DNA of 64,000 bases from Myxococcales bacterium 68-20. GTDB taxonomy: Bacteria > Myxococcota_A > Polyangia > Polyangiales > Polyangiaceae. The DNA lies in NCBI GenBank assembly GCA_001899635.1, contig MKVQ01000037.1:1-64000 (forward strand), in the 5' to 3' direction. Of this stretch, positions 43,016 through 44,898 are shown in pieces. Made by a program: the position numbers and the translations under genes. Position 1 is the first letter of the stretch. Each line of letters begins with the position of its first letter. The notes under the pieces are model-generated. The model was not told where the DNA came from, searched no databases, and saw only the letters and a program-made list of their open reading frames with translations.

Positions 43016-44053
43016 TCAGCTCTGCAGAGGTCCCAGGTCGACGACGCGGGACCACCGCGCGCCGCTCACGTCTTCGAGCTCGATGCGGTAGGTGCCGGGC
43101 GGAAGAGCAGGCTCGTCGCCCGTCGTGGAGAGCGTGACGGTCGCACGTCCGCCGAGCGGCACCACTAGACCGTGCGGGCCCGAGCGAACCTGCACGAGCC
43201 AGCGGTTCGAGATCTGCGCCGGAGGAAGCGCCGCGAGCGCCGCCGAGTCGTAGTGGCGAACGAGCCCTCCCTCGGCATCGAACACGCGGAGGTCGACGAC
43301 GAAGGCACCGTAGGTCTCGGGGCCGACGGGCCGCTCGAGCGTGAGCACCATCTCGCCATCGACGCTCAGACGCGCATCGAGCACGTCGACGCGCGGGCGC
43401 ACGGAGTCGTTGTGGAGCGTGCCCCAGAGCCCACCGTAGAAGATCTGGTTCGTGGCGAGCGTCACCACTACGGCGAAGCCGGTGAGCGCCCCCACGGTGA
43501 TCCGCGACGGGCTGGGACGAGGGTCGGCCATCCAGCGCAGCCACCGGCGCTCGAACAGCCCGGGGCGAGCGCGCACGAGCCACGCGTCGAGCGAGAAGGC
43601 GCCCGCGCCCCCGAGGATGACCGTCGCGCCTCCGGCGATGCCGAGCGCACCGATCTGCCATTCGTCCAGGCACGTGGGCCCGAGCCATCCGGAGCCGAAG
43701 AGGATCCCCGCCGAGAGCATCAGCGTCCCCAGCGCAGCGAGCCGAGCTCCGAGACCGACGATGAGCGCGAGCCCAACGAGCGCCTCGATGATCGTGAACG
43801 CCCACAGAAACGCATGCAGCGCAGCGGGACGATCGAGGAGCGCCGCGATCATGTGATCCACGCCGAGGATCGAGCCCGGCATGAACTGATTGAATTTCTC
43901 GCCCACGTAGCCCGGCGCGCCGGGGACGAGCTTCTCCGCGTCGAGCAGGACGCGACGATGGAACGCGGAGAAGAACATCCAACCCGTCACGAGGCGGATG
44001 GGCAGGAGCACGAACGACGGCTGGAGCGACTTCGGACGCGCGACGACTTCCAT
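43016..44053 (-). CDS. DoxD-DoxA fusion, thiosulfate:quinone oxidoreductase-like membrane protein
   Basis: A 345-residue protein starting at ATG 44053. The N-terminal half (about 15-170) is a DoxD/DoxX-type domain with four to five transmembrane helices ([15 protein letters not shown], then [15 protein letters not shown]). After a Pro/Arg linker and one more helix ([19 protein letters not shown]), the C-terminal half (about 205-345) resembles the extracytoplasmic DoxA domain. In Acidianus, separate DoxD and DoxA subunits form thiosulfate:quinone oxidoreductase; fused forms occur in bacteria. This suggests sulfur compound oxidation feeding the quinone pool. Its start overlaps the stop of the ArsR-rhodanese gene (TGATG). 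Activity is inferred; a DoxX-family protein of other function is the alternative. Confidence 0.75.
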
Positions 44054-44700
44054 CACGCCGCTCCGACGTCGAGACCGCGTCCGCTCGCAAGCCATTCGGG
44101 GACGCCGAAGCGCAGGCGCTCGGCGCGAAGCCCCGCTTCACGCAGTGTGAGGGTCCCGCGTCGCGCGTTGGGGCAGTATTTTCCGCGGCAGTAGACGAGG
44201 AGGCGTCGCGCGCGCGGAAGCTCCGACAGCCGCTCCTCCAGGCTGGAGAGCGGAACGGAGGTCGCCCCGGGTAGATGGCCCACCTCGAACTCGTTCGCCG
44301 GCCGGAGATCGACGAGCACCGCACGACGAGGACCGACGCACGCCTCGAGCTCGTCGACCGTCACCTCGGAGCTGCTCTCGTCGTTGCCCTCCTGCTCGAT
44401 GAGACGGAGGGCGGGCACGAGCGCTTCACCTGCCTCCCGCAGCGCGAGGAACAGACGAAGGCCGCTCTCGCGGTTGGCACCTTGGAACACGTGCTTGCCT
44501 TGCTTCCGCGCCGTGACCAAACCCGCGGCGCGAAGCGCCTTCATGTGAGCGGCCGTGTTCGCCTCGCTCTCCCCGAGGAGCGCGGCGAGCTGGTCGATCG
44601 ACTTTTCTCCCTGGAAGAGGAGGTTCAGCGCGCGGAGGCGCGTCGGGCTGGAGAGGCTGGCGGCGACGCGAGCCAGCTCGGCGTAGAGGTCGTCGTTCAC
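44053..44700 (-). CDS. ArsR-family repressor fused to a rhodanese domain
   Basis: A 215-residue fusion from GTG 44700 (TTG 44706 adds two residues). Residues about 5-95 form an ArsR winged helix ([31 protein letters not shown]; wing KQGKHVFQ). Residues about 112-205 form a rhodanese domain with the active loop C171-R-G-K-Y-C176 and [17 protein letters not shown]. Rhodaneses carry a persulfide on the first Cys; here a second Cys in the loop would allow a polysulfide bridge, so the protein probably senses sulfane sulfur. The stop codon overlaps the DoxD-DoxA start (TGATG), so regulator and oxidoreductase form one unit. Function inferred from fusion and neighbour. Confidence 0.85.
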
Positions 44701-44701
44701 A

Positions 44702-44735
44702 GACAATCATTCAAATAGATTTTTGATCGTTTGTC
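44702..44735. promoter_or_regulatory. Operator-like palindrome at the ArsR-rhodanese start
   Basis: Two 15-base arms, 44702-44716 (gacaatcattcaaat) and 44721-44735 (ttttgatcgtttgtc), are complementary at 11 of 15 positions around the 4-base centre agat. The region is AT-rich in a GC-rich setting and immediately precedes the regulator's start, as expected for autoregulation by an ArsR-type protein. There is no experimental support. Confidence 0.55.
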
Positions 44736-44898
44736 CATGATCGCGTACGCACGAGCTCGCCGAGCCCGCGCGAGACGCGTCCCCGCCGGTCCTCGAGGCA
44801 CAGACGTCCTCGCGCGCTCGCGAGCGGCCCGTCCGCCCGTCAGGGCGCGAGACGCGATCCGCTCCGGTCCACCTGGAGCGCCTGCGTTCGGTCGCGCC

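Follow-up and report, generated by a model that had tools for sequence, protein, structure and literature searches.

An ArsR-rhodanese regulator paired with a DoxD-DoxA fusion in Myxococcota: a putative sulfane-sulfur-responsive operon

Overview

The 64,000-nucleotide stretch of Myxococcales bacterium 68-20 DNA analysed here (the window) carries, on its reverse strand, a gene for an ArsR-rhodanese fusion regulator that overlaps a gene for a membrane DoxD-DoxA fusion protein (DoxDA) resembling thiosulfate:quinone oxidoreductase (TQO). Our preferred reading, to which we assign a probability of approximately 0.7 from sequence comparison, is that the two constitute an autoregulated, sulfur-sensing operon in which the rhodanese loop acts as the sensor and DoxDA is the target. 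In the mechanism envisaged, a dimer of the regulator would bind a palindromic site overlapping the promoter and repress both genes; on the appearance of sulfane sulfur (persulfide, polysulfide or thiosulfate-derived) the rhodanese residue C171 would accept a sulfur atom, and C176, the sixth residue of the same loop, would close a polysulfide or disulfide bridge with it. The change induced by this bridge would loosen the DNA-binding domain and turn the operon on, and membrane-bound DoxDA would then remove reduced sulfur, with transfer of electrons to quinone. Sensing would be similar to that of SqrR and SoxR, but with the reacting cysteines in an enzyme-type domain instead of the DNA-binding domain.

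The ArsR-rhodanese fusion is itself already widespread, and what is new here is its pairing with DoxDA, together with sequence evidence pointing to a shared operator and to a loop-based cysteine pair. A wider proposition, for which we consider the balance to be even, is that ArsR-rhodanese proteins form a separate class of sulfane-sulfur sensor that crosses phyla, employing a rhodanese half-reaction, two loop cysteines as the switch and an ArsR domain that reads ATTCAA-N8-TTGAAT.

An overlapping gene pair

The regulator gene occupies positions 44053..44706 (-) and starts at either TTG 44706 or GTG 44700, giving a protein of 217 or 215 amino acids, respectively; residues are numbered here from the GTG, so that the loop cysteines are Cys171 and Cys176 (173 and 178 if counted from the TTG). 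Pfam identifies an ArsR-type helix-turn-helix (HTH_5; 44512..44649 (-), amino acids 18-63, E 1.9e-10, 40.9 bits against a cut-off of 22) and a rhodanese domain (PF00581; 44086..44358 (-), amino acids 115-205, E 9.7e-12, 45.7 bits against a cut-off of 22.2). The active loop, C171-R-G-K-Y-C176 (44173..44190 (-)), contains two invariant cysteines, the first of which, at the loop start, aligns with the active-site cysteine of other rhodaneses. The ArsR-rhodanese fusion with a two-cysteine loop that an earlier note on this DNA had described is thus present, with both domains in one open reading frame. The winged-helix HTH_5 match above its cut-off and a conserved palindrome at the gene start place the protein in the ArsR/SmtB family, and a full-length alignment over both domains, the CRGxxC loop and an upstream ATTCAA-N8-TTGAAT element further assign it to the ArsR-rhodanese fusion family.

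An AlphaFold model of the regulator, built from three sequences, has modest confidence (pLDDT 76, pTM 0.45), such that neither the domain arrangement nor the distance between the cysteines can be taken from it. It matches ArsR helix-turn-helix structures, the first and nearest being the Mycobacterium bovis Mb0332 fragment 1-100 (2kko, 3gw2), and also rhodanese domains, including that of the persulfide dioxygenase-rhodanese fusion 5ve5; no single structure among the matches shown covers both domains. The rhodanese fusions of persulfide dioxygenase (BpPRF, 5ve3-5ve5) and CoA-disulfide reductase (3icr) likewise join a rhodanese to a sulfur-metabolism partner, although that partner is an enzyme, whereas in the window regulator it is a DNA-binding domain.

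The DoxDA gene (43016..44053 (-)) follows directly: the regulator TGA and the ATG of DoxDA overlap by a single base, at 44053 (TGATG; sequence GCGTGATGGAA), which bears out the overlap that the earlier note had reported. On the same strand, an ABC-F-like ATPase gene ends 193 nt upstream of the pair and a protein-kinase gene starts approximately 330 nt downstream. No sulfur gene was recognised adjoining the pair, and the unit therefore seems to be two genes long. The earlier description of this unit as self-contained is drawn from the gene pair; the source genome contains, elsewhere, 16 other rhodanese domains as well as PDO-like and SQR-like genes.

Conservation of the pair across Myxococcota

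DoxA is rare in the order, occurring in 7 of 183 genomes, with one further example among 377 genomes sampled from the phylum. In five of these eight genomes (the window, G013 (L028), G073 (L050), G109 (L051) and G487 (L133), a relative at class level) DoxDA is immediately preceded by an ArsR-rhodanese gene, with stop and start codons that overlap by 1 or 4 bases; given the rarity of DoxA, this adjacency is not attributable to background. Three Polyangium genomes (L047-L049) contain DoxDA without an ArsR-rhodanese regulator, and G072 has a regulator of the paired clade without DoxDA, adjoined by a DsrE-like lipoprotein. In a tree with 28 other ArsR-rhodanese proteins, the paired regulators cluster with that of G072 in a single clade (99/97). 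In the DoxDA tree the four closest pairs group together, with the window and G109 inside, in an order compatible with the regulator tree; G487 is a long branch placed beside the Polyangium copies. These trees are most simply read as a single joining in an ancestor, after which the genes were inherited together and in places lost, although the DoxDA tree does not prove a single origin. Taken together, the data support the regulator and DoxDA as a conserved, co-inherited and, judging from the overlaps, translationally coupled unit.

Outside Myxococcota, no CRG-type ArsR-rhodanese gene was found beside DoxDA among the 80 loci listed (Bacteroidota, Mycolicibacillus), a set dominated by Chryseobacterium, with 332 weaker relatives beyond it. 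The Bacteroidota proteins, gut species included, are the nearest wide relatives, and the loci listed show neither an evident sulfur operon nor an ArsR-rhodanese neighbour.

Two loci deserve separate mention. At L136 (1136-3011) the regulator belongs to the paired clade but has no DoxDA; after it come a DsrE-like lipoprotein gene and an ECF-sigma-like gene, the second of which resembles a gene found behind DoxDA in the three Polyangium genomes. Sulfur modules seem, from this comparison, to exchange parts. In G013 the pair is closely preceded, on the same strand, by genes for cytochrome bd (Cyt_bd_oxida_I and II; L028 2796-5164), which would suit a DoxDA that passes electrons to quinone.

A putative operator at the regulator start

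A 34-bp imperfect palindrome, which the earlier note had pointed out at the start of the regulator, was located at exactly 44702..44735 (-); 12 of its 17 positions are complementary, it extends to the regulator start codon and an equivalent site is similarly placed in related loci. Within it lies the putative operator core GATCAA-N8-TTGAAT (44709..44728 (-)), which agrees at 10 of 12 positions with the family consensus ATTCAA-N8-TTGAAT. The palindrome is not significant by itself: allowing up to two mismatches, the core has one match in the window against 0.12 expected, 10 of 100 shuffles also contain a match, and an inverted-repeat finder run on the window does not list it. We judge it to be real on account of its conservation across loci, and not of its window statistics.

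Each of the five pairs has the 20-bp core in front of its regulator; the core recurs upstream of most other ArsR-rhodanese genes in the order, and is present in some homologues from Bacillota and Alphaproteobacteria, e.g. Lactiplantibacillus and Methylocystis. When the best core score (out of 12) was taken from the 100 nt upstream of each gene, at least 9 was reached by 18 of 23 ArsR-rhodanese genes, including 6/6 of the paired clade, and by 3 of 260 neighbouring control genes; the 23 genes had been picked by the CRG..C pattern, which does not bias their upstream DNA. These comparisons support the palindrome as a conserved site rightly placed for autoregulation, i.e. a putative operator.

In many loci the core is immediately preceded by TTGACT, and AATAGT/AATACT-like hexamers follow after 17 nt; so arranged, the site would fill the spacer of the promoter, where a repressor would be expected to act. 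In the four close pairs and G072 a TTGACA-like/ATTCAA-N8-TTGAAT element ends 2-8 nt before the start codon, and in G487 an element of the ATTCAA-N8-TTGAAT type ends 31 nt before it. For the window, the aligned upstream regions suggest a possible sigma-70-like promoter over the operator (44709..44737 (-)), comprising TGGACA (44737-44732), a 17-nt spacer and TTGAAT (44714-44709), the last of which is weak as a -10 element; a strict sigma-70 promoter scan of the window does not report it. This candidate promoter would possibly yield a leaderless or nearly leaderless transcript. It is because the palindrome both overlaps the possible promoter and reaches the start codon that the regulator may begin at either TTG 44706 or GTG 44700.

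Across the source genome, core sites with up to two mismatches number 18, against a control count of 2, and all have two mismatches. Ten were examined and no sulfur gene lies behind any promoter-placed site, for which reason we claim no wider regulon. Beside the G109 pair lies a divergent ArsR-like gene, and upstream of it there is a second palindrome (CTTTGACAAATGTTTTTGTCAAAG; L051 9950-10000).

Cysteines of the rhodanese loop

Cysteine conservation was assessed in relatives taken by match coordinates alone (33 loci), together with 11 plasmid hits, with no cysteine pattern imposed on their selection, since a pattern such as CR..C would make the assessment circular. C171 and C176 are present in 33/33 readable relatives from the order and in 11/11 plasmid relatives from other phyla, and these two residues of the C-R-G-x-x-C loop are the only cysteines common to all of them.

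The sulfane-sulfur sensors SqrR, BigR, SoxR, sHdrR, YgaV and HlyU (ArsR SSN cluster 4) are mostly repressors tied to sulfur genes, and ArsR sensors of this kind carry a cysteine pair in helices 2 and 5 whose bridging by sulfur leads to release of DNA (PMC10451225, PMC12423496, PMC10509353). The window regulator shares their ArsR fold; unlike them, it has its invariant pair in the fused rhodanese loop, and its helix-turn-helix, read from the sequence, contains no cysteine and hence no helix-2/helix-5 pair. Its score against the NCBIfam BigR model is 30.4, below the cut-off of 155. Fifteen of the 33 order homologues additionally possess a cysteine pair in the helix-turn-helix (LCQGPRT near position 28 and VC near position 80) that the window protein, like many others, lacks; these proteins, of CRGPYC type (L006, L009, L010, L013-L015, L138, L139, L142, L146-L149, L152 and L153), perhaps have in it a second, SqrR-like sensing site.

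Were the rhodanese simply an enzyme, delivering sulfur to a downstream acceptor or taking it from the DoxDA reaction, DNA binding would set the level of the operon and the loop would have no control over it. The intact catalytic loop would suit such a role, as would Acidithiobacillus ferrooxidans, in which a rhodanese gene adjoins doxDA (PMC2621215); there, however, the rhodanese is free and accompanied by a solute-binding protein, whereas here an ArsR-rhodanese regulator is coupled to DoxDA. This explanation appears decidedly improbable in view of the second loop cysteine, which is invariant in the family and has only one other counterpart at the sixth loop position among the 17 rhodanese domains of the source genome, and of the retention of the fusion across phyla along with its putative operator.

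Nature of the inducer

The neighbours of those ArsR-rhodanese genes in the order that are not beside DoxDA encode PDO-like MBL-fold proteins, MFS transporters (one of them rhodanese-fused), DsrE, an SQR/FCSD-like flavoprotein and a class-V aminotransferase resembling cysteine desulfurase. In other phyla the annotated neighbours are MBL-fold, DsrE, MFS, rhodanese and TauE proteins, and similar sulfur-type neighbours occur on plasmids of Azotobacter, Deinococcus, Rhodococcus, Acidiphilium and Methylocystis. From these sulfur genes and the chemistry of the loop cysteines, the inducer is most likely sulfane sulfur. The earlier note's reading of the pair as a unit that senses and oxidises sulfane sulfur, with a sensor that may draw sulfur from the substrate, is supported in part.

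The loop might alternatively serve as a disulfide or other redox switch that responds to peroxide, thiol oxidants or hypoxia and not to sulfane sulfur, with DoxDA as one of several respiratory targets. Two cysteines this near to each other can join in a simple disulfide, some ArsR-rhodanese homologues have thioredoxin genes at their flanks, cytochrome bd genes stand upstream of the G013 pair, and peroxide-sensing ArsR proteins with a dithiol are known (PMC10509353). Against this, all homologues have kept the catalytic cysteine of the rhodanese and most of the neighbours are persulfide or sulfide genes, and we regard a redox switch as unlikely.

That the regulator is a metal- or metalloid-sensing ArsR/SmtB repressor, with the rhodanese as an accessory, seems to us very improbable indeed. 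The helix-turn-helix only just passes the NCBIfam metalloregulator model NF033788 (59.9, cut-off 55), and a heavy-metal ATPase adjoins one Lactiplantibacillus homologue; yet, with no cysteine in the helix-turn-helix, there can be neither a C-V-C arsenic motif nor a cysteine-based metal site, helix 5 has no histidine to act as a ligand, and sulfur genes are the neighbours of ArsR-rhodanese genes elsewhere. The Lactiplantibacillus plasmid genes (L172, L175) have an ATTCAA-N8-TTGAAT-type site and yet adjoin thioredoxin or heavy-metal ATPase genes, which suggests that targets or inducers are different in Bacillota, and the inducer may differ between branches.

Relation to mycobacterial proteins and implications

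Mb0332, the closest structural match to the helix-turn-helix part, is presumably the equivalent of mycobacterial Rv0324, which we take to have the same ArsR-rhodanese domain order as the window regulator. If sensing by the rhodanese loop is correct, it would offer a testable mechanism for a large group of regulators whose sole annotation is 'metalloregulator ArsR', into which Rv0324 of M. tuberculosis, by its architecture, would presumably fall. Rv0324 itself has been reviewed as an ArsR-family protein affecting bedaquiline tolerance (PMC9480834), and the literature searched yielded neither a sulfur-sensing mechanism nor a DoxDA link for it. The search likewise returned no experimental study of an ArsR-rhodanese fusion, most subscription journals being outside its reach.

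Loop sensing would also mean that persulfides can be sensed in a second way, through reactive thiols located in a catalytic domain. If it proceeds by a rhodanese half-reaction, detection would be enzyme-catalysed and could be substrate-selective (e.g. thiosulfate versus polysulfide), and in the paired branch it would be wired straight to a TQO-like oxidase. The analysis yields a defined 20-bp candidate operator and a two-gene unit ready for use in reporters, as well as a regulatory reason to ask whether the poorly understood DoxDA of non-chemolithotrophs acts on thiosulfate.

The DoxDA protein

DoxDA contains a DoxD domain (PF04173; 43571..44005 (-), E 1.2e-37, 129.9 bits) and a DoxA domain (PF07680; 43049..43441 (-), E 1e-32, 113.2 bits), both above the curated Pfam cut-offs. 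The single cysteine of the DoxD domain, C128 in the motif G-x-TC-x-DEW, is invariant in 28/28 aligned DoxDA proteins, distant copies from Gluconobacter and a Salmonella plasmid included. Both domains are those of the TQO proteins DoxD and DoxA of Acidianus ambivalens and are fused, as in A. ferrooxidans DoxDA; unlike known TQO, however, the window protein falls below the NCBIfam TQO equivalog cut-offs (NF041179, 100.9 against 300; NF041178, 16.1 against 300). The TQO-like DoxD-DoxA fusion proposed in the earlier note is accordingly upheld in its domains and their fusion, but not at the level of equivalog assignment. No solved structure of a DoxDA relative was found by sequence.

Whether DoxDA is a TQO is a question separate from that of the sensor: the regulator might well sense sulfur whilst DoxDA has another membrane role, such as transport of a sulfur compound or a different quinone reaction. 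The missed equivalog cut-offs would be in keeping with this, as would the wide distribution of DoxDA in Bacteroidota, gut species among them, away from sulfur genes. Given that both TQO domains are complete and fused, and that the motif cysteine is preserved even in the distant Gluconobacter and Salmonella-plasmid copies, we consider such a role a lesser possibility, though one to be kept in mind, and a TQO-like, quinone-linked sulfur oxidase is the probable identity of the protein.

Two features of distant DoxDA loci may be added. DoxDA is preceded in most of the Bacteroidota loci (L058 5565-5942, L057 5515-5898 and similar) by a small cysteine-containing protein (FSPCxVRN...), probably exported, for which no function was found. 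Salmonella accounts for 13 of the 20 plasmid matches to DoxDA, and on a Salmonella conjugative plasmid (L178 3935-5023) the gene is flanked by transposase genes, far from known thiosulfate oxidisers.
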